From positions 1 to 64,000 of the forward strand of contig JAITIK010000143.1 of the NCBI GenBank assembly GCA_031279555.1: a DNA stretch of 64,000 nt, written 5' to 3'. The notes under the pieces were generated by a model. It ran no database searches and had not been told where the DNA came from. It saw only the letters and a list, made by a program, of their open reading frames with translations. The translations under genes were made by a program, and so were the position numbers. Shown one piece after another: positions 42,066 to 60,245 of the stretch (position 1 is the first letter of the stretch; each line of letters starts with the position of its first letter). The DNA is from Treponema sp. GTDB taxonomy: Bacteria > Spirochaetota > Spirochaetia > Treponematales > Breznakiellaceae.

Positions 42066-42075
42066 GTTCTCACCC

Positions 42076-43224: not shown

Positions 43225-43236
43225 GGAGACCCACCT

Positions 43237-44172
43237 CTAATTCTCATTTGCAAGTTCTATGCGAGGATCGATGATCTTGTACAGAACGTCAACCAGAAAA
43301 CTCATAATGATGACCAGCGCGGCGAAAAATATCGTTGTTCCCATGATGATCGGATAATCACGGTTGCTGATGCTTTGAATGAAGTACCTGCCGAGACCGG
43401 GAATGTTGAAGACCGTCTCAACCACGAATCCGCCGGTCAAGATACCCGCTGTTACGGGTCCCAGATACGTGACAACCGGAATAAGCGCGTTCCGGAGCGC
43501 GTACTTGAAAATCAGCTTGGCGGTGGATGACCCATAGGCGCGGGCGGTTTTGATGTACTCCTTGTTCAACACGTCAAGCATGGAAGAACGGGTGTAGCGG
43601 GCGATGGAACACATGGGCATGAGCCCCAGCGTAAAACAGGGCAGCGCGTAGCTTATCGCGCCTCTGTTTAAGCCGCTTGTCGGAAAAATGCGCCATACGC
43701 CGCCGGCGAAGCACACCAGCAGCGCGGTCGCCACTACAAAGCCCGGAAACGCGATGCCGAGCGTGGTGATCACTTGGAGCAGGCTGTCCTGCCACTTGCC
43801 GCGTTTATACGCGGCGACGCATCCCAGCGCAACGCCCGCAAAGGTTGACCAGAGGAGCGCAATCGCGCCGATACGCGCCGACACCGGAAACATTTCGCTG
43901 ATAATCATCGCAACCGGCCTGTTTTTTTGCATTTTGAGAGACACGCCCATGTCGCCCTTCATAAGGCTCGCAATGTAATTTTTAAGCTGAACGGGAAGGG
44001 GCTTGTCAAGCCCGTATTTCGCTTGCAGTTGCGCGAGTACTTGGGCGGAAATGGCTTTTTCACCGAGAAACGGTCCCCCCGGCACTGTATTCATCAGCAA
44101 GAACGTCAAACAAATGACAAAAAGGAGGGTGACAAAAGCCAAAACGATTCGTTTTACAATATAGGAGAACAT
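43237..44172 (-). CDS. oppB: Oligopeptide ABC transporter permease
   Basis: FSYIVKRIVLAFVTLLFVICLTFLLMNTVPGGPF; FVVETVFNIPGLGRYFIQSISNRDYPIIMG. Confidence 0.93.
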   Translation of the reverse strand: MFSYIVKRIVLAFVTLLFVICLTFLLMNTVPGGPFLGEKAISAQVLAQLQAKYGLDKPLPVQLKNYIASLMKGDMGVSLKMQKNRPVAMIISEMFPVSARIGAIALLWSTFAGVALGCVAAYKRGKWQDSLLQVITTLGIAFPGFVVATALLVCFAGGVWRIFPTSGLNRGAISYALPCFTLGLMPMCSIARYTRSSMLDVLNKEYIKTARAYGSSTAKLIFKYALRNALIPVVTYLGPVTAGILTGGFVVETVFNIPGLGRYFIQSISNRDYPIIMGTTIFFAALVIIMSFLVDVLYKIIDPRIELANEN

Positions 44173-44224
44173 AAAAATCACCTTATCATTTCTTGCGGGA
44201 TTTGTCAACGCCGCAAGCGGCTGG

Positions 44225-44375
44225 GCGATTGTGGTTTTTTGCGGCGCTTTGTACCACAAAAATCCCGATTATTTGGTTTCTGCGAACCTTTGGTTCGATG
44301 GCAGTTTGCGCGGCAAGAAATCGACTAACCGGCGATTTTTTGGGATTTTATGCGCGAAGCGCGACAAACTGCTAG
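44225..44375. mobile_element. MITE/REP-like dispersed repeat, copy 2 (left terminal repeat degraded)
   Basis: Identical 32-nt blocks 44278-44309 and 44344-44375 versus copy 1. Confidence 0.7.
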
Positions 44376-44662
44376 CGCATGAGAGCCGCGAGGCTTGCGT
44401 CGCCGGCGCATGATTATGGCTTATTAGGATCCGGCGTTGGCGTCGTCGGCAATAGATATCCATAAACCGGTGTCAATCGGCGGCGGGCTTTCCGCCAACG
44501 TCTGACTGCGCCGCAATTCCCGCGTTGCGGATCCGCGTCCGCGCATTTCAGACTAGACGCTCCATAAGGCTAGGTGTTTTTCCCTATATATCGTCTATTG
44601 TTTATATAGCATTATTAATATCTATATAAAGTATAGCGTAAAGTATCTGTTAAAGTTACGGA

Positions 44663-44695
44663 TGTTTTTCAAAGCCAACCACGTTTTGAAAAACA
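44663..44695. repeat. Perfect 11-bp palindrome TGTTTTTCAAA / TTTGAAAAACA upstream of the SBP-fusion gene
   Basis: Direct reading. Confidence 0.75.
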
Positions 44696-44737
44696 CTCGT
44701 GTGATGAGACTAGTATGAGAGGAGGATGGATGGCTTG

Positions 44738-47611
44738 ATGTGGAGAATGCATAAAGAAACGCTGATTACTATAGGCGTTATTGCCGTGTTGCTGGCGGTT
44801 TTTCTTGCAACCCGAAGCAGAGATATGGACTACAGCGCAAAATATACGGGATCTGATTTGAAAACCAATAAATCAGGCAGGCAAAACACTTATGCAAAAT
44901 ATCTGGATCGTCATGCGGGCGCGGCGACGGGCGCGAAAGACATTCCAATTGATATTTTTTCTTATACGGCGGCTGAAGGCGCGGCGGAGCTTGTTAATTT
45001 CGAGGGCGAGGCGAGGGCGCTGAGAACGGAGGAAGGCGGATTCGTTGAATACAGCGTTTACGTCGAGAAGGCCGGCTTGTACAACATCTATCTGGAATAT
45101 TTTCCTGTTGAAGCGCGCGGCATTCCCATTGAGCGGAGCCTCTTGATTAATGGCGAGACGCCTTTTTTGGGCGCGGAACAACTCGCCTTCCAGAGGGTTT
45201 GGGGCGATGCGCCTACGGGTGTAAAAATCGACAACCAAGGTAATGAAATCCGTCCCTCGCAGGTTGAAAAACCTCGCTGGGAAGCGGCGTATCTGAAAGA
45301 TTACATGGGTTATTTTACCACCCCCTACCAGTTTTACTTTAAAGCGGGCGACAACACCATCCGATTCGACGGCATAAATGAGCCTATGGCGATCCGCAAG
45401 ATACACGTAACTGGCGTTGCGGTCACGCCAGCGTATGCGGACTACATAAAAAAATTCAATGCCGGAGGATTTCAGAATACAAATCAAACCTTTATGGAAA
45501 AAATACAGGGTGAAGCGGCGTTGTACCGTTCCGATCCCTCCCTTTACGCGGTGTACGACCGGTCGTCCGGCGCCACCGAACCGGTGAGCGTCGCAAAAAT
45601 CAAGCTGAACATGATAGGCGGGCAAAGCTGGCGCGTTTCCGGACAGTGGATCGAATGGGAAATTGATGCGCCGGAAGACGGCATGTACCGTCTTTCCGTT
45701 AAAGCGCGGCAGAACTACAACCGCGGTTTCGTATCAAACCGCACTCTGCGGATTGACGGCGAAATCCCCTGTCAGGAAGTCGCGGCGATACCGTTCAAAT
45801 ACAACAATAAATGGACGCTGGTTACATTCAAAGACAAAGATGGAAACGATCTATATTTCCCGCTCGCCAAAGGCAAGCATTCGATCAGGTTTGACATAAC
45901 ACTTGGAGAATTGGGCGAAATGTTGAATATTATGGAAGAAAGCGTATTCCGTCTCAATGAGATTTACCGTAAAATTCTGGTCTTGACCGGTCCGGAGCCT
46001 GATCCTTACCGCGATTACCGCGTGGATTATGTGTATCCAGATGTCATTACGGCAATGGCGAAGGAAAGCAAAATTCTGTACAAGCTGGTTGACGATCTGA
46101 CCGCCTATTCAGGCGAGCGCGGCTCTCAGGCCGCTTCGGCGCTTACTTTGGCGCGTCAGCTTGAGCTGTTTGTGAAAAAGCCGCATAAAATTCCGCAGAT
46201 GCTCATAAACTTTAAGGGCAACATCAGCGGGCTTGGGGACAGCTTAAACGGCCTCGCCCAATCGCAGCTTGACATAGATTACCTTGTGGTAAGCGCGAAG
46301 GATGCGAAACTGCCGGTTGTACATGAAAATTTCGCCGTAGCGGCAATACATGAATTGAAGTCGTTTTTTGTGTCGTTTTTCGTTGACTACAACAATCTCG
46401 GCGATGTATACAAAGGCGAAGATGTTGTTGATGTATGGATGTTAAGCGGACGCGATCAAAGCGTCATCCTAAAAGCGATGATTGACGACACGTTCACGCC
46501 CGTGACCGGCGTTAAGGTGAATGTCAAGCTCGTCGCTCCGGACGCGGTTATGCCCGCCGTAGTCGCGGGAACAGGTCCGGACGCGGCGCTCTCGATACCA
46601 CAAGGCGATCCGGTAAACTACGCGATCCGCAGCGCCGCTATGGATTTGTCGCAATTCGGGAGCTTCGACCAAATGAAAGCCGAATTCTACGACAGCGTGT
46701 TTGTGCCGTTCCGCTATGGCGGCGGCACGTACGGTTTGCCGGAAGCCCAGTACTTCAATGTGATGTTCTATCGTACGGACATCATGGCGGAACTTGGCCT
46801 CGACCCGCCTCAGACATGGGAAGATTTGATAAACATATTGCCGGTTATTCAGAAAAGCAACATGAATGTCGGCATCCCGTCCGTGGCGACGACAAGCGAT
46901 TTCTCGAACTTCCTCGCCCAGCTTTACCAGCGTCATGGAACGCTCTACAACGAGGACGGCTCAAGAACCATGCTTGACAGTGAAATCTCGGTTGACGCCT
47001 TTGACGCATATACGAAATTCTTCACCCATTACAAGGCGCCGACGGTCTACGACTTTGTAAACCGTTTCCGCACCGGGGAAATGCCGCTCGGGTTTGCGGA
47101 TTACACGACGTTCAACACGCTGGAAGTGTTCGCGCCGGAAATCCGCGGATTGTGGGACTTTGGGCTTATGCCCGGCGTAAGGCAGCCTAACGGCGAGATC
47201 GACCGTTCCGTGCCTACAGGCTCTGTCGCCTCAATGATCTTCTCGAACGCAAAGAAGCCGGAAGCCGCATGGGAGTTCTTGAAGTGGTGGGTGAGCGCGG
47301 ATACGCAAGTGCGGTTCGGACGCGAGCTTGAGAGCGTCATGGGAGCGGCTGCGCGTTACCCGACCGGAAACATGAAAGCCTTTCAGCGGCTTTCATGGGG
47401 TTCCCGCGAAATGGCGGTGTTAAGCGAACAGCGTTCGTGGACGGTCGGTACGCCGGAAGTGCCGGGCGGTTATTATGTCAACCGTCATATAGTAAACGCG
47501 GTGCGCCGCGTACTGAACGAAGGCGAGGATACGCGCGAAACGCTGCTTGATTACAGCCGCACCATAAATGACGAGTTGATAAAAAAACGAAAGGAATTCG
47601 GGCTTGAGTAG
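44738..47611 (+). CDS. TM-anchored fusion of N-terminal CBM-like domains with a C-terminal extracellular solute-binding domain
   Basis: N-terminal TM, two beta-rich GQWIEWEIDAPEDGMYRLSVKARQN-type modules, then SBP_bac_1-like YGLPEAQYFNVMFYRTDIMAELGLDPPQTWEDLI. Confidence 0.75.
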   Translation: MWRMHKETLITIGVIAVLLAVFLATRSRDMDYSAKYTGSDLKTNKSGRQNTYAKYLDRHAGAATGAKDIPIDIFSYTAAEGAAELVNFEGEARALRTEEGGFVEYSVYVEKAGLYNIYLEYFPVEARGIPIERSLLINGETPFLGAEQLAFQRVWGDAPTGVKIDNQGNEIRPSQVEKPRWEAAYLKDYMGYFTTPYQFYFKAGDNTIRFDGINEPMAIRKIHVTGVAVTPAYADYIKKFNAGGFQNTNQTFMEKIQGEAALYRSDPSLYAVYDRSSGATEPVSVAKIKLNMIGGQSWRVSGQWIEWEIDAPEDGMYRLSVKARQNYNRGFVSNRTLRIDGEIPCQEVAAIPFKYNNKWTLVTFKDKDGNDLYFPLAKGKHSIRFDITLGELGEMLNIMEESVFRLNEIYRKILVLTGPEPDPYRDYRVDYVYPDVITAMAKESKILYKLVDDLTAYSGERGSQAASALTLARQLELFVKKPHKIPQMLINFKGNISGLGDSLNGLAQSQLDIDYLVVSAKDAKLPVVHENFAVAAIHELKSFFVSFFVDYNNLGDVYKGEDVVDVWMLSGRDQSVILKAMIDDTFTPVTGVKVNVKLVAPDAVMPAVVAGTGPDAALSIPQGDPVNYAIRSAAMDLSQFGSFDQMKAEFYDSVFVPFRYGGGTYGLPEAQYFNVMFYRTDIMAELGLDPPQTWEDLINILPVIQKSNMNVGIPSVATTSDFSNFLAQLYQRHGTLYNEDGSRTMLDSEISVDAFDAYTKFFTHYKAPTVYDFVNRFRTGEMPLGFADYTTFNTLEVFAPEIRGLWDFGLMPGVRQPNGEIDRSVPTGSVASMIFSNAKKPEAAWEFLKWWVSADTQVRFGRELESVMGAAARYPTGNMKAFQRLSWGSREMAVLSEQRSWTVGTPEVPGGYYVNRHIVNAVRRVLNEGEDTRETLLDYSRTINDELIKKRKEFGLE

Positions 47612-47633
47612 AGCCGTCAAGGAGAGATGATAA

Positions 47634-48566
47634 ATGAGTTTTAAATCTTATGCGGCAAAGAGAAGAGAACGGTTCGGCAATCTTCTGAAACAAATTGGGA
47701 GGGCCAGGACATGTTATCTTTTTTTGTTGCCTTATGCGGTTGTATTTGCGCTTTTCGTTGTGGCGCCACTGATTGTTTCTATTTTTTATAGTTTTACGTA
47801 TTACAACATCCTTGAAGATCCCACATTTATTGGACTGCGCAACTACATCAACCTGCTTTTGAGCGACGACGTATTTCTGACGGCGGTGAAGAACACCTTT
47901 ATACTCGCCGCAATCACCGGTCCCATCGGCTATCTCGCATCCTTCCTATTCGCGTGGTTCATTTATGAACTGCCGCGCTACATTCGCGCGTTTGTAACGC
48001 TGATCTTCTATGCGCCCTCTATTTCAGGGTCTGTGTACATAATTTGGGCGATCATTTTTTCCGGCGACGCTTACGGCTACATAAACGGACTGCTGATGCA
48101 AATAGGTATAATCGATCAGCCGGTGTTGTGGCTGACGGATCCAAACTACATGATGCCGGTTATGATCGTCGTCGTCCTGTGGATGAGTTTAGGCACGGGC
48201 TTTTTGGCGTTTATCGCGGGGCTTTCCACCATTGACGAAAGCCAGTACGAGGCGGGCATCATGGACGGCATAACGAATCGCTGGCAGGAACTGTGGTATA
48301 TCACATTGCCGAACATGAAAGGCATGTTGCTGTTCGGCGCGGTCATGGCCATCACCCAGTCCTTCGGCATCGCCGATGTAACGACCGCGTTGTGCGGGTT
48401 CCCAAGCACCGACTACGCGGTGCATACGGTGGTGAACCACCTTGTCGACTACGGTTCAATCCGGTTTGAAATGGGGTACGCTTCCGCCATCGCAACGTTG
48501 CTGTTTCTCGCGATGATTTTGTGCAATAAAGCGGTTCAGAAAATGTTGAGCCGGGTTGGAACATGA
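47634..48566 (+). CDS. Carbohydrate-type ABC transporter permease (MalF-like)
   Basis: GLRNYINLL, ESQYEAGIMDGITNRWQELWYITLPNMKGML EAA loop. Confidence 0.9.
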   Translation: MSFKSYAAKRRERFGNLLKQIGRARTCYLFLLPYAVVFALFVVAPLIVSIFYSFTYYNILEDPTFIGLRNYINLLLSDDVFLTAVKNTFILAAITGPIGYLASFLFAWFIYELPRYIRAFVTLIFYAPSISGSVYIIWAIIFSGDAYGYINGLLMQIGIIDQPVLWLTDPNYMMPVMIVVVLWMSLGTGFLAFIAGLSTIDESQYEAGIMDGITNRWQELWYITLPNMKGMLLFGAVMAITQSFGIADVTTALCGFPSTDYAVHTVVNHLVDYGSIRFEMGYASAIATLLFLAMILCNKAVQKMLSRVGT

Positions 48567-48579
48567 GGGGGAGGAAACT

Positions 48580-49464
48580 GTGAAAAAGGCGCCTAAGAAA
48601 AAATTAATGAAAAATCTGAGTCACAGAAGACCAAACCGGTCTCTGGGAGGCGATATCTTTATCAGCATCATCCTCACGATTTTCGGGTTGTTTTTTGTAT
48701 ATCCGCTCTTGTACGCGATCAACAACGCTTTTAAACCGCTGAATGAGATATTCCTGTTTCCGCCCAAGCTGTTTGTCCAGCAGCCCACCATGAACAACTT
48801 CCAGGATTTGTTCATTATAATGAGCAAATCCTGGGTGACGTTTTCACGGTACATATTCAACACCGTGTTTATCACCTTTGGCGGGACGCTTGGGCTTGTC
48901 ATTCTCGCTTCAATGGGGGCGTTTGTGGTCTCGAAATACGTGTTTCCGGGCGCCAAGCTTTTCTTCTCCATCGTCATTACCACGCTTATGTTTTCCGGTT
49001 ATGTAACGGCGATTCCAAACTATCTTATTATGACGAGGCTGGGATGGGTGGACACCTACCTTGCGGTCATCATTCCCGCTTTTGCCATGCCTATGGGCTT
49101 TTTCCTGCTGAAGCAGTTCATTGACACCATACCGAACACGCTCATTGAGGCGGCGAAAGTCGACGGCGCGGGCGAGGCGCGGATATTCGCGCAAATCATC
49201 ATGCCGATGATCAAACCGGCGTGGCTGACGGTTATGATTTTTTCCGTTCAGAACCTTTGGAACGCCCGCGCATCAAATTTTATTTATTCGGAGCAATTGA
49301 AAACCCTGCCGTACGCGCTGGGGCAGATTATCACCGCAGGCGTGGCGAGAGTCGGCGTCGGCGCCGCGGTCACCTTGTTTGTTATGATTGTTCCTCTGGT
49401 CATGTTCATCTTGTGCCAGAGTAATGTTATTCAAACAATGGCGAATTCCGGCATTAAGGAATAA
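48580..49464 (+). CDS. Carbohydrate-type ABC transporter permease (MalG-like)
   Basis: IPNTLIEAAKVDGAGEARIFAQIIMPMIKPAW EAA loop; GTG start with GGGGAGG. Confidence 0.9.
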   Translation: MKKAPKKKLMKNLSHRRPNRSLGGDIFISIILTIFGLFFVYPLLYAINNAFKPLNEIFLFPPKLFVQQPTMNNFQDLFIIMSKSWVTFSRYIFNTVFITFGGTLGLVILASMGAFVVSKYVFPGAKLFFSIVITTLMFSGYVTAIPNYLIMTRLGWVDTYLAVIIPAFAMPMGFFLLKQFIDTIPNTLIEAAKVDGAGEARIFAQIIMPMIKPAWLTVMIFSVQNLWNARASNFIYSEQLKTLPYALGQIITAGVARVGVGAAVTLFVMIVPLVMFILCQSNVIQTMANSGIKE

Positions 49465-49476
49465 GGAGGAAGCGAC

Positions 49477-50997
49477 ATGAAATTTCCATTATTTTCAAAA
49501 TTGTTGGATGCGCCAAAAATGGCGGAGCCAAAGCCGTTCTCTTTATCAAGAATCGTGATCGCGTCCGGTTTTATCCTGTTTTTCCTGCCGTTCGCATCTC
49601 CTCTCTTTGCGGACGTGGCGACAAATTATTCGTACAACTACGATTATTGGAACGAGCAGGTCGTTTCACCCGATTCGTACCATGTAAGCGCCTACCTCAT
49701 CGGAGATGATTTTGGCATTGAGAATTTTCGCGATCCGCAAGGCTTATTTATTAAAGACAACCGCATCTATATCTGTGATTCCGGCAACAACCGGATAGTG
49801 CAGCTTGAGGCGAAACCGGACGGATCCTATGATCTTACACGGATCATCGCTTCTTTCTGGATTGGCGAAGAGGAAAGCGCGTTCAATTACCCGTCTGATC
49901 TGTTTGAAACCAAAGAAGGCGAACTGTTTATCTGCGATACAAACAACCACAGGGTCGTCTGGCTTGACAAGGACATGAACTACGTCGCTTCAATAATAAA
50001 ACCGGTTGATGAAAGTTTTGACGCGAATGTGGAATTTCTGCCGACGAAAATAGTCGTTGATCATGCGGGGCGTATATTCCTTCAGGCGAGGAACGTCAAC
50101 AAAGGACTTATGGAATTTGACAAAAACGGCGTTTTTGTAGGGTTCATGGGGGCGAATAAGGTGTGGGTCAATCCTGTTGACTATATATGGAAGTTGATTT
50201 CCACTCAAGCGCAACGGGCGCGGATGGATCTGTTCATCCCCACAGAATACAACAACCTCTGCCTTGACAACGACGGTTTCATCTACGTAACGAACAGCAG
50301 CAGTTGGTATATAGCCTCAGTACGCCGGCTTAACGCGATGGGGCAAGACATTCTCATACGGAACGGATACGAAGACCCGGTGGGAGATATTTCTTTCGGC
50401 AGCGCGGGCGGCGTCAGCGGATCTTCCAAGTTTATTGATGTGGCGGCGCTGGACAACGACAGTTACGCCTGTTTCGACCGCGTCCGCGGACGCATTTTTA
50501 TGTACGACTTCCAGGGAAACCTGCTGTATGCGTTCGGCGGACTCGGCAATTACAAAGGCTATTTTTTGCTACCGGTCGCCCTTGATAAAATGGGCTACTC
50601 GCTCTTCGCGCTTGATGCGCGAGCGGCGACGCTCACCCGCTTCGATTTGACTACATACGGTGATCTCATCAATACAGCGTTGGGTGAATATAAGGCGGGA
50701 CGGTATGAATCGTCTGCGGAGAAGTGGGAACAGGTGCTGAAAATGAATGGCAACTATGACCTTGCCTACATCGGCATTGGGCGCGCCGCGCTCCGGCAGG
50801 GCGACTACCTGAAGGCGATGGAATACTACAAGCTGAAGCGGGACGATAAAGGCTACGGCAAAGCGTTTCAGTTCTACCGCAAGCAATGGATGGAAGAAAA
50901 TTTATGGAAAATACTGCTTGTCCTCGCCATTGTCATTATTGTTCCCAAGTTGGTTAAAGGCATACTGAAATTTCGCAGGGAGGTCATGGAAGAATGA
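49477..50997 (+). CDS. NHL-repeat protein with TPR-like segment and C-terminal TM anchor
   Basis: FRDPQGLFIKDNRIYICDSGNNRIVQL repeats; YDLAYIGIGRAALRQGDYLKAMEYYKLK; C-terminal TM. Confidence 0.8.
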   Translation: MKFPLFSKLLDAPKMAEPKPFSLSRIVIASGFILFFLPFASPLFADVATNYSYNYDYWNEQVVSPDSYHVSAYLIGDDFGIENFRDPQGLFIKDNRIYICDSGNNRIVQLEAKPDGSYDLTRIIASFWIGEEESAFNYPSDLFETKEGELFICDTNNHRVVWLDKDMNYVASIIKPVDESFDANVEFLPTKIVVDHAGRIFLQARNVNKGLMEFDKNGVFVGFMGANKVWVNPVDYIWKLISTQAQRARMDLFIPTEYNNLCLDNDGFIYVTNSSSWYIASVRRLNAMGQDILIRNGYEDPVGDISFGSAGGVSGSSKFIDVAALDNDSYACFDRVRGRIFMYDFQGNLLYAFGGLGNYKGYFLLPVALDKMGYSLFALDARAATLTRFDLTTYGDLINTALGEYKAGRYESSAEKWEQVLKMNGNYDLAYIGIGRAALRQGDYLKAMEYYKLKRDDKGYGKAFQFYRKQWMEENLWKILLVLAIVIIVPKLVKGILKFRREVMEE

Positions 50998-51659
50998 ACG
51001 GAACGATTCAAATAATGGACAAGCCAAAGTCGGCGCGTTTGGGATTAACGCTCAAATATGCGTTGTATGTTATAACGCATCCATTTGACGGTTTTTGGGA
51101 TTTGACGCATGAAAAACGAGGATCCCTTGCGGCGGCGAATATTATTACCGCGGCGCTGGTGTTGGTTGAAGTGTTGCGTCTTACTTTAACCAATTTCCAG
51201 TTTATTTCTATAAATATGGAATATTTTAATGTCATCACTGTGGCGCTCCGTATCCTTCTGCCGCTTTTTTTGTGGACGGTCGCCAACTGGAGCCTTACGA
51301 CATTGATGGACGGCAAGGGCCGTATTCTTGAAATCTATATGGCGACAGCGTATGCATTCACCCCGTATATTATTATCAATGCGGCTATGATAGTGTTAAG
51401 CCAGTTTATTACGGAACAGGAAGGCGCAATTTATTATGTCTTAACCAGCTTTGCGCTTGTGTGGTCGGTTCTGCTGGTGTTGGCGGCGATGATGATGGTT
51501 CATAGTTACAGCGCCACGAAAGCGATTCTTTCCAGTTTGCTTTCTATAATAGCGATGGGCGTTATGGTGTTTATCTTTCTTATGTTTTTTAGTCTTATCA
51601 GTGATGCGATGGCCTATTTCATATCACTGTACAAAGAAATCGTTTTCAGGCTGACTTAG
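50994..51659 (+). CDS. Yip1-family-like membrane protein
   Basis: About five TMs, YVITHPFDGFWDLTHEKRGS N-terminus; overlaps the NHL gene. Confidence 0.65.
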   Translation: MNGTIQIMDKPKSARLGLTLKYALYVITHPFDGFWDLTHEKRGSLAAANIITAALVLVEVLRLTLTNFQFISINMEYFNVITVALRILLPLFLWTVANWSLTTLMDGKGRILEIYMATAYAFTPYIIINAAMIVLSQFITEQEGAIYYVLTSFALVWSVLLVLAAMMMVHSYSATKAILSSLLSIIAMGVMVFIFLMFFSLISDAMAYFISLYKEIVFRLT

Positions 51660-51669
51660 GAGAGGGGAC

Positions 51670-54219
51670 ATGAAAAAGAATTTAACGCCGGTTTTGCGAA
51701 TGTTGCTATTGCCCGTCATAGTGGGAGGAATTTTCATTTCGGCATCCTGCAACAGAGTGAAAGCGGAAGATAAAAGGATACAGTGGTACGAATGGGACGG
51801 CAATGAAAAAGAGGTGGTGATCCAAAATAGCCAGCTTGAACTGCGATTTTTTCCAAAAACCGCAGGCTTCACATTGACGGACAAGACTACCGGAACGGTA
51901 TGGCATTCCACTCCGGAAGATGCGGCGGACGATCCCGCGTCCGACGGTTTGACGAAACAGATATTGCAATCACAGTTTACGTTGGTTTACTCGGATGACG
52001 CGGGCGTGGGCGTGACGCTGCCGAATTCCAGATACAGCGTTGAAAAAGGCATGTTCGAATACGACTTGGTTGACGGCGGGCTTGAAGTGAACTACACGGT
52101 TGGCAATGTGTCGCGTGTTTTCTATATTCCAAAAGCGATTAGGGAACGGCGCTTCATTGAATTCCTTGAAAAGATGGAAAAATCGGATAGCGACAAGGTT
52201 GAAGGAAGCTACCGCCTATACGACATCAACAGACTGCGCGCAAACGACAACAAAGACGCGCTTCTTGCGTCTTATCCGGACTTAAAGGAAGAAAAGGTGT
52301 ACGTCCTGAGAGACGCCACGCAGGATTTTATGAAGGCGCAAATCGACGACCTGCTTGCCTCCGTTGGTTATACAATAGAAGATTACGAGGAAGACGCCGT
52401 GCGGTATAACGCGCCGGCTGAGGCTGAAAAGCCGGTGTTTAACGTAACCGTCCGCTACGAATTGGACGGCAACGCTCTTGTGGTGAGCGTCCCGTTTGAT
52501 AAATTGGCGTTCAGACCTGTATTCCCCATAACTCAGTTGAACCTTCTGCCGTATTTCGGCGCGGGCGGCGTTCAGGATGAAGGGTATCTGTTTGTGCCGG
52601 ATGGAAGCGGCGCCCTTATAAATTTTAACAACGGCAAAACCGGGCAGCTTGCGTACAACAACTATGTGTACGGTTGGGATGCGGGCATGTTCCGCGAAGC
52701 GATCATCCACGACAACAAGGGGCCGTTTCCGGCGTTCGGCGTCCAGAAAAATGGCAATGCGCTTCTGTGCGTGATTGAAGAAGGCGCTTCCTACGCAAGC
52801 GTCAGGGCGGATGTTTCCGGCAGAAACAGCTCCTACAACAATGTATATGGGCAGTACGCCGTCATGCATGGAGCGAGTCTGGATGTTTCGGCGAAATCCG
52901 ACAAAGCCGTGTATATGTACCAGGCGCAGCTTCCGCAGGGCGAACGGATCGTTCAACGATACATACTTTGCGCTGAAGACACCTATGTCGGAATGGCGAA
53001 AGAATTCAGAAAATACCTGCTTGCGAAAGACAGCGGGCTGAACGACAAGATCGATGGCGGCGTTCCTATTGCGGTGGAGATTATCGGGGCTGTGGACAAG
53101 ATTCAGCATCGAGTCGGCATTCCTTTTAACCTGCCGTTAAAACTCACTTCATATGAAGAGGCGGAGGGAATGGTGGAAGACTTCGCCGCTTTCGGCTGGA
53201 AAAATGTGAATGTCAAAATGATTGGCTGGTTTAACAACGGCGTCGAGCATTCCGTGCCGTCGGACGTACGCCTGATTTCCGGGTTGGGCGGCAAGAACGC
53301 ATTCAAGAGCCTTGTTTCCACGGCGCGCGACTTTGGTTTCAAATTGTACGCCGAGGGTGATTTCCTCCATATGCGTGATAACGGGCCTTTCGACACGTTC
53401 AGCTTGTATACGGACGCGGCGCGGTATGTTACCCGCAAGCGGATAGAGAGCTATCCCTACAGCTTCGTCTGGTTCGGGGAGCGGAAGAATTGGGGCAAGA
53501 TCAGTTATATGGCGACGCCTCTTTACATGAAAGAACTCATTCAGGGCTTTGAAGAGAAAACCGGAAAATTGGGCGTAACAAACGTCGCGTTCAGAACAAT
53601 CGGCGCGAGGCTTGGAGGCGATTACTATGAAAAACGGTTTGTAAGCCGCGAGGCGTCCATGAACCTACAAAAAAGAACGCTCGCCGAATTAAAACAGAAG
53701 GGAAGGGGAGTTCTCGTGAATACGGGCTTTTTGTACACCGCGCCCTACGCTGATTTCATCACCGATATACCGCTTGTGGATCAGGCGTTCGGCATTACCG
53801 ACATATCGATACCTTTCTACCAAATCGTTCTGCATGGACTCGTACCCTTTGCGGGACGGGCGATCAACCTCGCTGAGGATTACCGGCTTAATTTGTTGAA
53901 ATCCATTGAGAGCGGAGCTGGTTTGTATTTTAGTTTTATGACCGAGGACAGCGCGATTCTTCAGGAAACGAAATTCAGACAATTTTACGCCAATGAGTAC
54001 AGCAAGTGGGTGGGCGATGCGGACGCCATTTATCAGCGGTTTGCGCGTGATTTTGACGGTTTGTTCAATCAAAAGATTGACAGTCATGAAATACTCGCGC
54101 CGAATGTAACGCTGACCATATACGAAAATGGCGCCAAAGTTTTGGTGAACGCAGGCAAAACGAGTTGCAGCTATGAGGGCAGAAATGTAGCCCCGTACGA
54201 TTATGCGATAATAAAGTAG
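51670..54219 (+). CDS. Large lipoprotein, DUF5696-like; possible beta-sandwich plus TIM-barrel glycoside hydrolase fold
   Basis: ISASC lipobox; N-terminal beta-rich domain, later GWKNVNVKMIGWFNNGVEHSVPSDVRLISGLGG / FKLYAEGDFLHM barrel-like strands. Confidence 0.6.
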   Translation: MKKNLTPVLRMLLLPVIVGGIFISASCNRVKAEDKRIQWYEWDGNEKEVVIQNSQLELRFFPKTAGFTLTDKTTGTVWHSTPEDAADDPASDGLTKQILQSQFTLVYSDDAGVGVTLPNSRYSVEKGMFEYDLVDGGLEVNYTVGNVSRVFYIPKAIRERRFIEFLEKMEKSDSDKVEGSYRLYDINRLRANDNKDALLASYPDLKEEKVYVLRDATQDFMKAQIDDLLASVGYTIEDYEEDAVRYNAPAEAEKPVFNVTVRYELDGNALVVSVPFDKLAFRPVFPITQLNLLPYFGAGGVQDEGYLFVPDGSGALINFNNGKTGQLAYNNYVYGWDAGMFREAIIHDNKGPFPAFGVQKNGNALLCVIEEGASYASVRADVSGRNSSYNNVYGQYAVMHGASLDVSAKSDKAVYMYQAQLPQGERIVQRYILCAEDTYVGMAKEFRKYLLAKDSGLNDKIDGGVPIAVEIIGAVDKIQHRVGIPFNLPLKLTSYEEAEGMVEDFAAFGWKNVNVKMIGWFNNGVEHSVPSDVRLISGLGGKNAFKSLVSTARDFGFKLYAEGDFLHMRDNGPFDTFSLYTDAARYVTRKRIESYPYSFVWFGERKNWGKISYMATPLYMKELIQGFEEKTGKLGVTNVAFRTIGARLGGDYYEKRFVSREASMNLQKRTLAELKQKGRGVLVNTGFLYTAPYADFITDIPLVDQAFGITDISIPFYQIVLHGLVPFAGRAINLAEDYRLNLLKSIESGAGLYFSFMTEDSAILQETKFRQFYANEYSKWVGDADAIYQRFARDFDGLFNQKIDSHEILAPNVTLTIYENGAKVLVNAGKTSCSYEGRNVAPYDYAIIK

Positions 54220-54228
54220 GAGGAATAG

Positions 54229-55152
54229 ATGGAGAAAAATAATCTGACGCTTGAAACCAAGAACGTCATAGCGGGTTATCTTTTCATATCGCCGTTTCTC
54301 ATTGGGTTTCTGGCGTTTATGGTGTTTCCAATTATAGAATCGCTGAGGATGATATTCAGCGACGTCAGAATCGACACGGTGAAACAAGGGTTTTCCATGA
54401 CCTTTACGGGGATGGCAAACCTGAACAAGGTTTTTTTTATTGACGCGGAATTCAACCGTATGCTGGTCGAAGAATTGGGGCGCATGGTGCTGATCGTGCC
54501 GGCGGAACTCATTTTCAGCCTTTTTGTCGCGTTGATTTTGAATCAAGAATTTAAGGCGAGGGGATTTGTGCGCATGGTTTTCTTCCTGCCGGTTATTCTG
54601 TCATCGGGCGTTATGATTGGCCTTGAGACGAACAATACGCTTCTAAACGGCATGGCCGAAATGATACGGGACAGTAATACGATGAAGGCGTCTGTCACCA
54701 GCGTACTTGAGGATATTCTTGTCGTTTCTGAAGGATCGGGGGATAACGCGGTGGCCGATTTTATGGGCTATATTTTCGCGGTTGTCAATCAGGTTTACGA
54801 CATTGCAATGGCATCCGGCATACAGATCATTATCTTTCTGTCAGCGTTGCAGTCAATCTCGCCAAGCGTGTATGAAGCCGCGCAGATTGAAGGCGCGACT
54901 AAATGGGAAAGTTTCTGGAAGGTGACCTTTCCTATGGTGAGCCCTTTGATACTGGTTAATGTCGTTTACAGCGTGGTGGACTATTTCATAAGAACGGATA
55001 ATACGGTGATGACAAAAATACGTACAACACTTATGCAGCGTCTAGAATACGGCTTTGCAACGGCAATGGCGTGGGTGTACTTCTTGGCGGTCATCGTCAT
55101 TCTTGGCATAGTGGCGTTTGTTATTTCAAAGAAGGTGTACTACTATGAGTAA
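54229..55152 (+). CDS. Carbohydrate-type ABC transporter permease (MalF-like)
   Basis: SVYEAAQIEGATKWESFWKVTFPMVSPLI EAA loop. Confidence 0.9.
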   Translation: MEKNNLTLETKNVIAGYLFISPFLIGFLAFMVFPIIESLRMIFSDVRIDTVKQGFSMTFTGMANLNKVFFIDAEFNRMLVEELGRMVLIVPAELIFSLFVALILNQEFKARGFVRMVFFLPVILSSGVMIGLETNNTLLNGMAEMIRDSNTMKASVTSVLEDILVVSEGSGDNAVADFMGYIFAVVNQVYDIAMASGIQIIIFLSALQSISPSVYEAAQIEGATKWESFWKVTFPMVSPLILVNVVYSVVDYFIRTDNTVMTKIRTTLMQRLEYGFATAMAWVYFLAVIVILGIVAFVISKKVYYYE

Positions 55153-56158
55153 AATATTTAATTTGAAAGAATTCTATCGATTTTTGGATCAGAACCGGGC
55201 TTCAAGAGGAATCCTTCTTAAAACGAAGGTTGGAGACGTTTTATTCAAAGTATGCCGCGCTTTGTTGCTGTTTGGACTTTGTTTTCTTATCCTACAGCCG
55301 CTTCTGGACAAATTAAGCATAGCTTTTATGGCGTTGCAAGACTTGTACGACCCGACTGTCATAAGCATACCAAGACACTTTACGCTGGACAATTTCGCGT
55401 TGGCGAGCCAATTGATGAACTTCTTTCCCACGCTTTTCAGGACGCTTGTTTTGGTTGTCGTCAGCGCGACGTTGCAAATCGCCGCGTGTACGCTCACGGG
55501 CTATGGATTTGCGCGTTTTAAATTTCCTCTGAAAAACTTCTGGTTCGCCTGTGTCATGCTTATCATTGTGGTTCCGCCGCAGACAATAATGGCGCCGCTG
55601 TACCTGAATTTTCGGTTTTTTGACGTATTCGGACTTATTCGCGGATTGACCGGCAAACCGATCAACATGTTGAACAGCGCGGCGGGTTATTTGTTGCTGT
55701 CGATTACGGGAATGGGCTTAAAAAGCGGTTTGTACATCTTTATGCTCAGGCAGTTTTTCCGCAGTATGCCGAAAGAGCTTGAAGAAGCCGCGTGTATAGA
55801 CGGTTGTGGCAAGCTGAGGACGTTTGGCGAGATTATTCTTCCTGACGCCGCGCCTATGGTTACGTCGTGCTTTTTGTTCTCTTTTGTATGGCAATGGACG
55901 GATTCCTTCTATTCCAGCCTCTTCCTGACGACATATAGGGTGCTTGCCGCCCAACTCGGCGCGGTCTCCGACCGCCTGAGCGAATGGTGGGCGCAAAGCG
56001 TTGGTTACGCAAGCGGCGCTTTGCCGCCGGTCGGTTATATGCAGGCGATCATCGCCACTGGCATGTTGATGAGCCTTATACCAATTATCATCCTGTATCT
56101 TATAGCCCAAAAAGCGTTTGTTCAGAGTTTGAGCCGGACAGGTATTGCGGGCATGTAG
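55145..56158 (+). CDS. Carbohydrate-type ABC transporter permease (MalG-like)
   Basis: PKELEEAACIDGCGKLRTFGEIILPDAAPM EAA loop; ATG 55145 overlaps the upstream gene. Confidence 0.9.
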   Translation: MSKIFNLKEFYRFLDQNRASRGILLKTKVGDVLFKVCRALLLFGLCFLILQPLLDKLSIAFMALQDLYDPTVISIPRHFTLDNFALASQLMNFFPTLFRTLVLVVVSATLQIAACTLTGYGFARFKFPLKNFWFACVMLIIVVPPQTIMAPLYLNFRFFDVFGLIRGLTGKPINMLNSAAGYLLLSITGMGLKSGLYIFMLRQFFRSMPKELEEAACIDGCGKLRTFGEIILPDAAPMVTSCFLFSFVWQWTDSFYSSLFLTTYRVLAAQLGAVSDRLSEWWAQSVGYASGALPPVGYMQAIIATGMLMSLIPIIILYLIAQKAFVQSLSRTGIAGM

Positions 56159-56201
56159 CCTGCCCTGCGGGAAATTTCATTGAAAAATTTTTTATAGAGG
56201 C

Positions 56202-56241
56202 TTTCCTAAAACGCGCCCTATGGGTCGTCAGTTTTGGGAAA
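56202..56241. repeat. Leader palindrome TTTCCTAAAAC / GTTTTGGGAAA
   Basis: 11-nt arms, one G:U. Confidence 0.65.
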
Positions 56242-56409
56242 CGTTCTATTTAAATAGGGGAGCCTTTGAGAATTTAGTTTTGAGATTTTTTTTTACCCTA
56301 CGGAGAGTCTCGCTGTAACTGATTATACTAAAAGTGATTAGTGATTTTATTCGGAGGATATCTAGAAATCTAATTGGGGGGTTTCCAGATATTTTTATAT
56401 GGAAAAAAC

Positions 56410-56430
56410 GCCCTTGTAGGGCAATTTTTT
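56410..56430 (+). terminator. Short hairpin GCCCT-TGT-AGGGC followed by AATTTTTT in the SBP leader
   Basis: Direct reading; possible intrinsic terminator or attenuator. Confidence 0.5.
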
Positions 56431-56501
56431 CTGTTCATAGGTAAAAAACCTGATAGTTTGCTTTATGAAATGTTTTATTGTAGATAGATAGGAGGAAAGA
56501 T

Positions 56502-57905
56502 ATGTCAAGAAAAGCAAAACAATTTGGTGTTGTGTTGCTCTCACTTATGATTGCGGTAGTATTTATTGGATGTCAGAAAAAAAAGGCCGCCGATGAAGCC
56601 GCTGTAGTTACGGAAGCCGCTGAACGCGATCTCGGTGGTATGGAAATCATTTACGGCAACTGGTGGGCTGATTACGATGTAGACAGCTACGAGCCGAATA
56701 ATCCGGCTGACGAAAGAACTCTTGAATGGCGCAAGGAAATTCAGCAAAAGTACAACTTTAAGATGCGGGAAGCGAATGTAGCCACATGGGAACTTATGAT
56801 GGAAGAAAGCGCGTCCTCCATCATGGCGGGTACGCCTATTGCGCAGATTATTCAACTCCAGCCGGGGTGGGCGATGGCGCTTTATGGGCAGAAATTGCTT
56901 GCGCCGTTGGATGTGCCGAGCGTTGATTTTAACCAGGACAAACCCATACAGTGGAACAGATCGGTTAGGGATGCCTTTACTTTCAATGGAAATACATATG
57001 CCCTTACGGTTGGATATGGCGGATCACAACACGGCGGCGGGGTGTTTTACAACAAACGGCTCTTTGAAGAAGCCGGTTTGGACCCGAACCTGCCTTATGA
57101 TTTGCAGAAGTCAGGGGAATGGACGTGGGAAAAATTCCGCGAGATCTGCGCAAAAGTTCAACGCGACGTTGACAATGACGGTGTGATTGACGTGTATGCC
57201 ACCGCATCAATATCTACCGATGCGCTTGATTTTATTCTTGCCAGTAATGGCGCCCGCATCATTGATAAAGATTCCTCCGGTAAATTTGTTCTTGCCATCA
57301 ATAAACCTGAATTCCTTGAAGCCCTTCAGTTCTCTTGCCAGTTGTTCTTGGATGGCTATGTCAGAATCCAACGCCCGGACGAAAACTGGAATTATTTTGA
57401 ACCGTTGTTCCATGACGGGAAAATCGCCATGCGTATAGCCCAACAGTACGTCGCGCAACAACTTGCTGAGATGAAGGACGATTGGGGATTTGTACTGTTT
57501 CCCAGGGGCCCAAAACTTTCCAATTATCTGTTTAGTCAGGATGAAAACGTATGTATAATTCCCTCAACCTATACACCAGAAGAAGTTGACAACATCATGT
57601 TCGCCTATAAAATGTGGCAGACTCCCGCTCCGGGAAACGATGATGACAATGCGTGGAAAGGCGCTCAATACAACATCTATCGTGACACCCGCGCCGTTGA
57701 TGAAACGCTCGTTATGATTCGTGATCCCAGTTACAGCATCTTCAAATATGAAAACCTGCTTGGTGGTTTTACCAACGCAGCCAGAGGTCAGATGGCGTGG
57801 AATATGTGGGTTGACGGCGTAGCCCAGAACCCGGCGCAACTCATTGAACAAGTCACCCCTTCATGGCAAGCCATTGTTGAAGATGCCAATATAGAACTCC
57901 AGTAA
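56502..57905 (+). CDS. Sugar-type ABC transporter substrate-binding lipoprotein
   Basis: VVFIGCQKKK lipobox; YGGSQHGGGVFYNKRLFEEAGLDPNLPYDLQKSGEWTWEKFREICAKVQ. Confidence 0.9.
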   Translation: MSRKAKQFGVVLLSLMIAVVFIGCQKKKAADEAAVVTEAAERDLGGMEIIYGNWWADYDVDSYEPNNPADERTLEWRKEIQQKYNFKMREANVATWELMMEESASSIMAGTPIAQIIQLQPGWAMALYGQKLLAPLDVPSVDFNQDKPIQWNRSVRDAFTFNGNTYALTVGYGGSQHGGGVFYNKRLFEEAGLDPNLPYDLQKSGEWTWEKFREICAKVQRDVDNDGVIDVYATASISTDALDFILASNGARIIDKDSSGKFVLAINKPEFLEALQFSCQLFLDGYVRIQRPDENWNYFEPLFHDGKIAMRIAQQYVAQQLAEMKDDWGFVLFPRGPKLSNYLFSQDENVCIIPSTYTPEEVDNIMFAYKMWQTPAPGNDDDNAWKGAQYNIYRDTRAVDETLVMIRDPSYSIFKYENLLGGFTNAARGQMAWNMWVDGVAQNPAQLIEQVTPSWQAIVEDANIELQ

Positions 57906-57936
57906 GCCAACTTATACGCTCCATTGATTACATTGC

Positions 57937-57963
57937 CCCGCCGCGAAAAGCGGCGGGTTTTTT
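57937..57963 (+). terminator. Rho-independent terminator CCCGCCGC-GAAAA-GCGGCGGG-TTTTTT
   Basis: 8-bp perfect stem, T-tract, 31 nt after the SBP stop. Confidence 0.93.
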
Positions 57964-58284
57964 GTCCGTGACTTGCGGGTGCGCGCAGTTTGCGAAGTCG
58001 CAACGATCATTTCCGCAACAACGCTTGACATTATTTCGTTTTAATTTCTTTTGTAAATATACATAATGTCCAGTTGTTTATTGCCGCGCGCAATATAGAA
58101 ACGCTTGCTTGTCTCAAATCCGTTTTGGAAGAGAAAGAGTTTGAACCGATGCAGGAACACGCAAAAATGTTTGCCGCCTCGCGGACAGTAAATGTTGGAT
58201 ATAAGGCTTATAGGCGTTTTTTTGAAGGATTAAAGACGTTATTAATAATGACGCCGAAATAAAGAATTGGTATATGAGTCTGTT

Positions 58285-58320
58285 CCAAAACGCGAACTTG
58301 CGTTCTGGTTGGTTTTGGAG
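58285..58320. repeat. Palindrome TCCAAAAC / GTTTTGGA
   Basis: 8-bp perfect arms. Confidence 0.55.
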
Positions 58321-58413
58321 GTGATGTCGTTCTTAAATTTTTCGGAGATTATTTAAGCCATATACTGCCATATTTTGAAATAGCTAACAGAGATTATAAA
58401 AAGCTCGCCCACG

Positions 58414-58437
58414 CTGGGCGCTTCGCGCCAGTTTTTT
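58414..58437 (+). terminator. Bulged hairpin CTGGgCGC-TTC-GCGCCAG followed by TTTTTT
   Basis: Direct reading. Confidence 0.5.
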
Positions 58438-58522
58438 GTTGCGATAACGGCTCCAGCGCATTTGCCAGCGCTAGTCGCGTTTCTGTTGAACGGGTTATAT
58501 ACGGCGTCCGTTGCGCCGACCC

Positions 58523-58551
58523 TTGACAGTATTCCACTCTCATTTTATACT
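58523..58551 (+). promoter_or_regulatory. folP promoter TTGACA-17-TATACT
   Basis: Direct reading; start codon 14 nt downstream of the -10. Confidence 0.7.
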
Positions 58552-58565
58552 CTCACCCTAGATGT

Positions 58566-59402
58566 ATGATCGCTACTATTGAAAAAGACGTACGCCGTGT
58601 TCTTGTCATGGCGATAGTCAACTGTACCAACGACTCTTTTTTCGCGCAAAGCAGGGCGGCTGACATGGAGACGGCGGTGGAAAAGGCGTTGCGCGCCGTG
58701 GAGGACGGCGCGGACATCATTGACATCGGTGGAGAATCGACGCGGCCCGGCGCGGCGTATATAGGCGAGGAAGAAGAGGCTCGGCGGGTGTTGCCGGTCA
58801 TTCGGGGCGTCAGACGCCAGTCAGACGCCCCCATATCGGTGGACACGCGGAAAGCCGCGGTTGCGGCCGCGGCTTTGGAAGCCGGGGCGAACATCATCAA
58901 CGATATTTCCGCGCTGGAAGACGATCCCGATATGGGAAAGGTTTGCGCGGCGCATCGCGCTAAAGTCGCGCTTATGCACAAGAGAGGCGCGCCTGAAACC
59001 ATGCAAAATGATCCGTTCTACCAAGATGTTGTTGGGGAGGTCGCCGCTTATTTGCAAAACGCGGCGCGGAGGGCTTTGGACGCGGGCGTTGCGCGGGAAA
59101 ACATTATACTTGATCCGGGCGTTGGTTTTGGGAAACGGCTGGAAGACAACACGGCGCTCATCAAGCGCCTTGCAACAATCCGCGCTCTAGGCTATCCTGT
59201 GCTGATTGGGCTTTCGCGGAAGACCTTCATTGGAGAACTGACCGGAAGGGGCGTCGAGGACAGGCTCGCCGGCACTCTTGCGGCGAACGCGGCCGCCATT
59301 ATGGCCGGAGCGGATATCATCAGGGTACACGATGTTAAAGAAGCGGTTGATATGGTAAAGGTGTTGCATGGAGTGGCTGCAGAAACTGTCGGCAATGTAT
59401 GA
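58566..59402 (+). CDS. folP: Dihydropteroate synthase
   Basis: MAIVNCTNDSFF, GADIIDIGGESTRPGA, LDPGVGFGK. Confidence 0.94.
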   Translation: MIATIEKDVRRVLVMAIVNCTNDSFFAQSRAADMETAVEKALRAVEDGADIIDIGGESTRPGAAYIGEEEEARRVLPVIRGVRRQSDAPISVDTRKAAVAAAALEAGANIINDISALEDDPDMGKVCAAHRAKVALMHKRGAPETMQNDPFYQDVVGEVAAYLQNAARRALDAGVARENIILDPGVGFGKRLEDNTALIKRLATIRALGYPVLIGLSRKTFIGELTGRGVEDRLAGTLAANAAAIMAGADIIRVHDVKEAVDMVKVLHGVAAETVGNV

Positions 59403-60231
59403 CATAATACGTCCGGCGCTGGACATAACGATCTTGGCGTTATTGCTGTACATGACGTATGGTCTTTTGGTAAAAACCCAAGCCGTACAGATGATAAAAG
59501 GCGCGGGTTTTCTCGCCTTGGTGTATGGACTTGCGACCTTGCTGAGACTCACCACGCTGGTGTGGATACTCAAGGCGCTGGCTCCCGGACTGCTCATCGC
59601 AGTCGCCATTGTGTTTCAGCCTGAATTGCGCAAGATAATCCTCCGACTCGGGCAAAGCGAGTTTTTCAGACCGAACGCCAAGCCGAACGCGGGGCATCTG
59701 GAAGCCGTCATTACGGCTGCGGAAATTCTTTCCCAAAAACGGCGCGGCGTGCTTGTCGTGTTTCCCCGAAAAATCAACATCAAGAACATCATTGATACGG
59801 GGACAAAGCTCAACGCGGAAATTTCTTCAAGCCTCATCGTCGCCATTTTTGAGTTTGACGGTCCCCTCCACGATGGGGCGATGATCATTCAGAATGAGCG
59901 GATCGCGGCTGCCGGATGCTTCCTTCCCCTGTCCGAGCAACAGGACATCAAGAAAAGTTTCGGCACCCGTCATAGAGCGTCTTTGGGCATGTCCGAGCAG
60001 TCGGACGCGGTGATTCTGGTTGTTTCTGAAGAGACCGGGGCTATCAGCCTTGCCTTTGACGGAAAATTGTACTACGATCTTTCACCTATAGAAGCCGCTC
60101 GAAAACTGCGGGATCTGCTTGAGCATGGGAAACGCAGCGCCGGTGTTGGAGAGACAAGCATGGACACCGGCGATGCAAACGGCTCGTTCGATGGCATTAA
60201 TCCTATGGAAGCCGCTCCATTTAAGAAGTGA
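59368..60231 (+). CDS. cdaA: Diadenylate cyclase (c-di-AMP synthase)
   Basis: FDGPLHDGAMII and GTRHRASLGMSEQSDAVILVVSEETG DAC motifs. Confidence 0.95.
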   Translation: MEWLQKLSAMYDIIRPALDITILALLLYMTYGLLVKTQAVQMIKGAGFLALVYGLATLLRLTTLVWILKALAPGLLIAVAIVFQPELRKIILRLGQSEFFRPNAKPNAGHLEAVITAAEILSQKRRGVLVVFPRKINIKNIIDTGTKLNAEISSSLIVAIFEFDGPLHDGAMIIQNERIAAAGCFLPLSEQQDIKKSFGTRHRASLGMSEQSDAVILVVSEETGAISLAFDGKLYYDLSPIEAARKLRDLLEHGKRSAGVGETSMDTGDANGSFDGINPMEAAPFKK

Positions 60232-60245
60232 GAGAGGCGTCTAGT

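Follow-up and report, generated by a model that had tools for sequence, protein, structure and literature searches.

In the usual picture, an ATP-binding cassette (ABC) sugar importer consists of one solute-binding protein (SBP), one channel and one ATPase. Some importers of the CUT1 type, such as YtcPQ-YteP and GanSPQ of Bacillus and those of Caldicellulosiruptor, consist of MalF/MalG-type permeases and a family-1 SBP and borrow an MsmX/MsmK ATPase encoded elsewhere; the shared-ATPase arrangement is established in Bacillus, Streptococcus and Caldicellulosiruptor (PMC7658222, PMC8579813). The mannan locus MULL of Roseburia intestinalis combines enzymes of glycoside hydrolase (GH) families GH26 and GH130 (subfamilies 1 and 2), an epimerase, a CE2 esterase, a LacI regulator and an SBP-permease set (PMC6385246). 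Two glycosidases also serve as points of reference: NagBb, an alpha-N-acetylgalactosaminidase of family GH129, and the GH129-like DagB, a 3,6-anhydro-D-galactosidase. Here, we compare with these systems a cassette of nine genes at 44726-57905 on the + strand of a 64-kb stretch of Treponema sp. DNA (positions 1 to 64,000 of contig JAITIK010000143.1, assembly GCA_031279555.1). Below, this whole stretch is called the window; it corresponds to contig C48 in a draft genome of 2.9 Mb.

We propose that the products of the nine genes form a single conserved double ABC importer that is tethered to the membrane and takes up oligosaccharides, most likely beta-1,4-manno-oligosaccharides in this lineage, and we give this reading an even chance of being right. 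Its two channels, formed by the MalF/MalG-type permeases P1-P2 and P3-P4, would each be fed by one family-1 SBP. SBP1 would be held by a membrane helix, with a helical stalk that bears two CBM35-like domains, SBP2 would be held as a lipoprotein, and ATP would be hydrolysed by a shared UgpC/MsmK-type ATPase encoded elsewhere. An NHL-TPR protein and a Yip1-domain protein may work as a single membrane unit, and a GH129-related DUF5696 lipoprotein may handle glycan on the outer side of the inner membrane, either by binding it or by trimming it before uptake. With regard to cargo, a GH26 mannanase would release beta-1,4-manno-oligosaccharides, which GH130 enzymes and a cellobiose-2-epimerase-type enzyme would phosphorolyse inside the cell. 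The reading draws on the genes, on how they are arranged and inherited together, on the homology of the DUF5696 fold, on an orphan ATPase, and on mannan genes both in this genome and beside the cassettes of relatives.

All nine open reading frames (ORFs) are intact and run in one direction, as the preliminary description had stated, in the order SBP1, P1, P2, NHL-TPR, Yip1, DUF5696, P3, P4, SBP2, and Pfam backs each assignment. SBP1 (44726-47611) carries an anchor at residues 11-29, CBM35-like domains at about 70-230 and 290-395, a helical/coiled-coil stalk at about 394-515 and a C-terminal SBP_bac_1 domain at 581-861 (PF01547, 77 bits); the start at 44738 given in the preliminary description, with GAGGAGG upstream at normal spacing, is at least as good as 44726. 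After 22 bases follows P1 (47634-48566, MalF-type, loop EAGIMDG...LP), which overlaps P2 (48556-49464, MalG-type, loop EAAKVDG...MP) by 11 bases. Twelve bases further on lies the NHL-TPR gene (49477-50997), whose product has a hydrophobic N-terminal segment, an NHL beta-propeller, a TPR-like region and a C-terminal membrane helix (471-489); Pfam finds NHL here, plus TPR models below threshold. The Yip1-domain gene (50994-51659; Yip1 at 45 bits, five predicted membrane helices) overlaps it by 4 bases and is separated by 10 bases from the DUF5696 gene (51670-54219), which matches PF18952 with 597 bits against a cut-off of 25.6 and covers the full length of the model. P3 (54229-55152, MalF/UgpA-type, loop EAAQIEG...FP) starts 9 bases later and overlaps P4 (55118-56158, MalG/UgpE-type, loop EAACIDG...LP) by 35 bases, or by 8 bases if P4 begins at its likely start, ATG 55145. 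BPD_transp_1 is above cut-off in all four permeases, and all four have EAA-type loops, as read from the sequence. The last gene, SBP2 (56502-57905), encodes a lipoprotein of the SBP_bac_1 type (54 bits).

Coupling is tight from SBP1 through P4 but not, in correction of the preliminary description, for SBP2, which lies beyond a gap of 343 bases (56159-56501) with a weak terminator-like hairpin and T run at 56410-56422. This hairpin could reduce or uncouple SBP2 transcription. The strong terminator that the preliminary description had seen after the last gene is confirmed (57937-57957; 8 GC pairs, T run), and no other terminator of the region is as strong. An Rfam scan of 43000-59500 found no RNA element. 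Directly upstream, on the - strand and divergent, a dipeptide/oligopeptide-type ABC importer was recognized by eye at 40069-44259 (two ATPases, two permeases); past the terminator, FolP (dihydropteroate synthase), diadenylate cyclase-like and YbbR-like genes were read, by eye only, at 58566-61232.

The cassette is far from unique to this genome. We fetched about 55 distinct spirochaete loci and searched them with profiles of the nine window proteins, each built together with the first homologues; components and order are alike in essentially all of these loci. The exceptions are contig ends, a few loci without a recognizable SBP2 and a sole rearranged cassette in genome G385 (L116:6772-18193), which reads NHL, DUF5696, P3, P4, SBP1, P1, P2, with a displaced and poorly resolved Yip1 match. 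Outside spirochaetes, gene order is identical on plasmid pNP243 of Butyrivibrio fibrisolvens, and a plasmid of Paenibacillus cellulosilyticus keeps the order with NHL and Yip1 fused; the Bacillota evidence consists of these two plasmids, from a contig scan with the window protein as query that finds close relatives only. The NHL-Yip1 fusion occurs in eight loci in all (seven spirochaete, plus Paenibacillus). A chance neighbourhood was rejected on this conservation. The neighbourhood is thus conserved in spirochaetes and in Firmicutes, for some of which the preliminary description had proposed similar arrangements, and no set of characterized orthologues from a known pathway was found that explains the nine genes together. 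No DUF5696 relatives were found in the viral contigs scanned.

In terms of distribution, a genuine DUF5696 protein is present in 12 of 296 genomes from a sample of the phylum and in 73 of 394 genomes of the order. Weak matches in other spirochaetes were discarded as GH13, DUF6259 and GH129 proteins sharing a common barrel segment; two of them, a GH13 and a DUF6259 protein in the phylum sample, lay just over the cut-off. Among 150 genomes of the family the NHL protein is present in 15, all DUF5696-positive, and the N-terminal half of SBP1 is found in the same 15 and in a 208-residue contig fragment from a genome outside the DUF5696 sample. One genome (G618) is DUF5696-positive without an NHL match, and its DUF5696 gene is at a contig edge. 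The closest named relatives of the window genome are Treponema metagenome-assembled genomes with the isolate names Cc, Cd, Ct, Gx and Emb. From these names we take them to be of termite-gut origin, which is probably also that of the window treponeme.

The pairwise identity matrices of the components correlate at 0.85-0.98, so the cassette is inherited as a block. P1 is the most conserved component (median identity 59%), and DUF5696 (34%) and SBP2 (32%) are the least, as expected if these two set specificity. A concatenated tree, with L120 and L121 as an arbitrary root, places Butyrivibrio among the spirochaete sequences, which suggests that the cassette moved between phyla. One treponeme genome, G385, has at least six diverged cassettes on separate contigs (L141-L148, L116), with eight NHL copies and both fused and separate NHL/Yip1 types. 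At one of its loci (L148:6800-10952) three tandem SBP2-type genes follow P4, as if alternative binding proteins serve one importer.

The locus itself encodes no ATPase, and the preliminary description had predicted an importer that depends on one encoded elsewhere, possibly an orphan of the MsmK type. Such a gene is present. Two proteins in the window genome carry TOBE_2, the MalK-type ATPase domain: one is PotA-like and sits beside its own permeases, and the other, on contig C113 (L054:898-1998), matches the UgpC model at 482 bits (cut-off 432) with no permease adjoining. Moreover, on the Paenibacillus cellulosilyticus plasmid ugpC lies directly upstream of SBP1. Given the orphan UgpC-type ATPase, the precedent for ATPase sharing and the Paenibacillus ugpC gene, the ATPase-less look of the locus is ordinary. 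A dead or non-transport system was rejected, since four intact permeases with EAA loops coexist with this ATPase in the genome. With its permease pairs, its family-1 SBPs and the UgpC-type ATPase in the genome, the cassette qualifies as a CUT1-type importer, the pairing of ATPase and permeases being predicted. The genome holds 39 BPD_transp_1 matches, several of them as MalF/MalG-like pairs.

A link to glycan degradation, also foreseen in the preliminary description, is borne out by the glycosidase genes beside relatives' cassettes. In 14 loci of f1 relatives, a GH130 gene stands directly after, or between, the SBP2 genes, and its closest PDB matches are UhgbMP and 5ayd, a beta-1,4-mannooligosaccharide phosphorylase. 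Nine f1 loci have a GH5 gene ahead of SBP1, and a tenth has it between P4 and SBP2. Next to fused-type cassettes are GH26, GH36 or GH27, GDSL esterases (one with a CE2 domain below threshold), GH130 and LacI, and in G263 GH2 mannosidase-type and GH94 genes as well. Mannanase, mannoside phosphorylases and transporter are largely co-located in relatives, for example G553 and G543, and partly in G398 and G263. In the window genome the enzymes are on other contigs: a GH26 lipoprotein on C29, and an UhgbMP-like GH130 followed by a fusion gene on C40. The fusion (C40:4150-6627, L136) joins an N-terminal cellobiose 2-epimerase (E 1.6e-84 to 5zig) to a C-terminal 4-O-beta-D-mannosyl-D-glucose phosphorylase (E 3.2e-169 to 3was), that is, two consecutive steps of mannan catabolism in a single polypeptide. 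The set of GH26, GH130 and epimerase is that of the Ruminococcus albus and Roseburia mannan pathways (PMC6385246). On C40, a contig of 7.9 kb, no transporter gene can be seen, so the cassette, like several other permease pairs of the genome, could serve the uptake step.

Genome-wide counts point the same way, with reservations. Of the 73 cassette genomes, 65 have GH130, as do 78 of the 321 others, and 22 of the 67 GH130 copies listed for cassette genomes are no more than 15 kb away from the cassette, where 0.8 would be expected; these counts ignore phylogeny. The association has an odds ratio of 25, which is still 21 within GH43-positive genomes. However, several observations weigh against mannan as the cargo. 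Nineteen of the 22 close neighbours come from one genus, and GH43, taken as a control, reaches an odds ratio of 14, so part of the signal is due to lifestyle; for this reason GH130 co-occurrence alone was rejected as proof of mannan. No glycosidase gene adjoins the cassette in the window or elsewhere in its own lineage, and in most f2 treponemes, too, the cassette lacks a glycosidase neighbour and has housekeeping neighbours as in the window. The binding domain of SBP1 has its best PDB match by sequence in Listeria Lin1841 (E 2.1e-14), a sophoro-oligosaccharide binder, and SBP2 is closest in PDB to an arabino-oligosaccharide binder. Finally, some paralogues adjoin PNGase F, GH38 or beta-1,2-glucan genes, which are rarer neighbours than the enzymes above, so mannan is not universal.

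These observations lead to the strongest alternative, to which we assign a lesser yet real likelihood: the cassette would be an oligosaccharide importer of a generic kind, with a cargo that varies by copy, and the cargo in the window lineage would not be mannan (beta-1,2-gluco-oligosaccharides, N-glycan fragments or xylo-/xyloglucan-oligosaccharides would be candidates). It accounts for the Lin1841 match of SBP1, for the GH43 gene that adjoins the Butyrivibrio cassette, and for the f1-linked GH5 enzymes, which are closest to cellulases and xyloglucanases and unlike classical mannanases. It also accommodates the pair of GH38 genes that follows the L121 cassette and the PNGase F gene in G276. 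In the latter locus (L050; 7590-8819, 14051-15064) PNGase F starts 4 bases past P4, in the place expected for SBP2, and a transposase lies between NHL and Yip1. A fused-type cassette of G385 (L145:151-19901) lies with a SOGP phosphorylase, a Glycoamylase-family enzyme, GH35 and a LacI-like regulator, which suggests a beta-1,2-glucan locus. On the Paenibacillus cellulosilyticus plasmid (L040:19958-29181), genes for four LLM-class flavin oxidoreductases and for two more SBPs are among those that follow P4, a poor fit to a simple hemicellulose role. From the PNGase F, GH38 and SOGP neighbours it follows that the chassis is probably general. On the other hand, the closest relatives with linked enzymes have UhgbMP-like GH130, and the window genome has a mannan phosphorolysis set. 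Mannan is consequently our best, but not secure, guess for the cargo of the window cassette.

The DUF5696 protein was first proposed to be an unclassified glycan-active enzyme. Its relationship to glycosidases stands, and its catalytic residues do not: homology of the GH129/DagB type is clear, but the canonical catalytic carboxylates are absent in the window protein. A profile of 50 DUF5696 sequences matches PDB chains 8rzk and 8rzg (E 1.5e-13) and DagB (5opq, E 2.4e-13) in three collinear stretches, and NagBb at E 0.0014; hhalign against six GH129 proteins gives a probability of 95% (E 2.9e-8, 306 columns). PF11308 (GH129) has no match to the window protein in the Pfam scan, so the homology is at superfamily level only. 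AlphaFold2 confidence was too low for use (mean pLDDT 35 for DUF5696 with seven sequences, 42 for SBP1), and the homology therefore rests on profiles.

In the window protein, R642 and T643 fall opposite two GH129 aspartates, which presumably lie where barrel strand four ends, and N684 or T685, depending on register, falls opposite the glutamate of the GSEGGND motif. We take Glu478 to be the acid/base of NagBb. Its nucleophile is Asp435 (PMC5698469). The window protein has no carboxylate at any of the aligned positions, whichever aspartate is the nucleophile, nor at the equivalent of Asp486, which together with Asp202 and Glu517 is strictly conserved in DagB (PMC5698469). Catalysis is thus doubtful, and a glycan-binding protein is a live alternative to an enzyme. 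Loss of the canonical pair does not prove inactivity, because DagB lacks the NagBb acid/base and is nevertheless active through other residues (PMC5698469).

This precedent leaves room for another explanation, in which the locus comprises two separate importers and an active extracytoplasmic DUF5696 hydrolase that uses other acids (e.g. D651, D711, E747), with NHL-TPR and Yip1 in an accessory or sensory role and not a structural one. The fold-level relationship to active enzymes would fit, as would the retention of these three acids in 44-46 of 50 sequences and the Asp found at position 643 in many f2 relatives. Yet residue 643 is T or N in the window protein and in its close relatives, their residues 684/685 also lack a carboxylate, and none of the acidic residues in the barrel region is invariant across the 50 sequences. 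We consider this explanation unlikely. A role in recycling or sensing the cell's own surface glycan or glycolipid would explain the housekeeping surroundings in the window and in f2 treponemes and suit block inheritance within families, but it is very improbable given that most genomes of the order lack the cassette, that other copies are strongly linked to catabolic enzymes and that transfer between phyla is apparent.

Returning to the tethered double importer, the N-terminal half of SBP1 matches PDB entries 5x7g (E 1.4e-6), 2w47 and 2w1w in regions that we take to be CBM35 domains, and then helical designed coiled-coil proteins. SBP1, the NHL-TPR protein (through its C-terminal helix) and DUF5696 carry membrane anchors, and the N-termini of DUF5696 and SBP2 read as lipoprotein-like. 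Every extracytoplasmic part therefore looks tethered, and we infer that the cassette proteins may assemble into one complex. The conservation of the NHL protein, its anchor and its fusion to Yip1 in some loci would fit the scaffold role that the preliminary description proposed for it. More tentatively, and with distinctly less confidence than in the importer itself, the cassette might represent an undescribed importer class, where two MalF/MalG channels are joined via an NHL-propeller/TPR-Yip1 scaffold to a non-catalytic glycan-binding protein derived from GH129, and where interchangeable SBP2s retune the cargo (mannan, N-glycan, beta-1,2-glucan and others). The open-licence papers searched contain no mention of DUF5696, nothing relevant linking Yip1 or NHL to sugar permeases and no description of the nine-gene cassette, an absence that is no proof of novelty. 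If the accessory proteins do form a tethered capture-import complex, this would be a third style of glycan uptake besides SusC/D and simple CUT1, and would provide functions for DUF5696 and for a bacterial Yip1 group. The cassette also predicts a route by which gut treponemes take up hemicellulose fragments.

Set against the described systems, the cassette shows both likenesses and differences. Lin1841, a beta-1,2-gluco-oligosaccharide-binding protein, resembles SBP1 in the binding domain, whereas its solved chain of 397 residues has no N-terminal anchor, CBM35-like domains or helical stalk. DUF5696 shares with NagBb and DagB a collinear N-terminal sandwich, barrel start and C-terminal domain, with profile-profile homology over the barrel and the C-terminal part; it differs in catalytic Asp/Glu sites without a carboxylate and in being a lipoprotein in a transporter operon. 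The components of MULL have counterparts beside relatives' cassettes or in the window genome, where, in contrast to MULL, the enzymes are unlinked to the transporter; the available part of its description has one SBP and one permease pair and does not mention DUF5696, NHL-TPR or Yip1 (PMC6385246). Finally, compared with the CUT1 importers that borrow MsmX/MsmK, the cassette has two permease pairs and two SBPs with NHL-TPR, Yip1 and DUF5696 between them, and an SBP1 with CBM35-like domains and an anchor. Altogether, two channels and three fixed accessory proteins have stayed together as one unit in two phyla.

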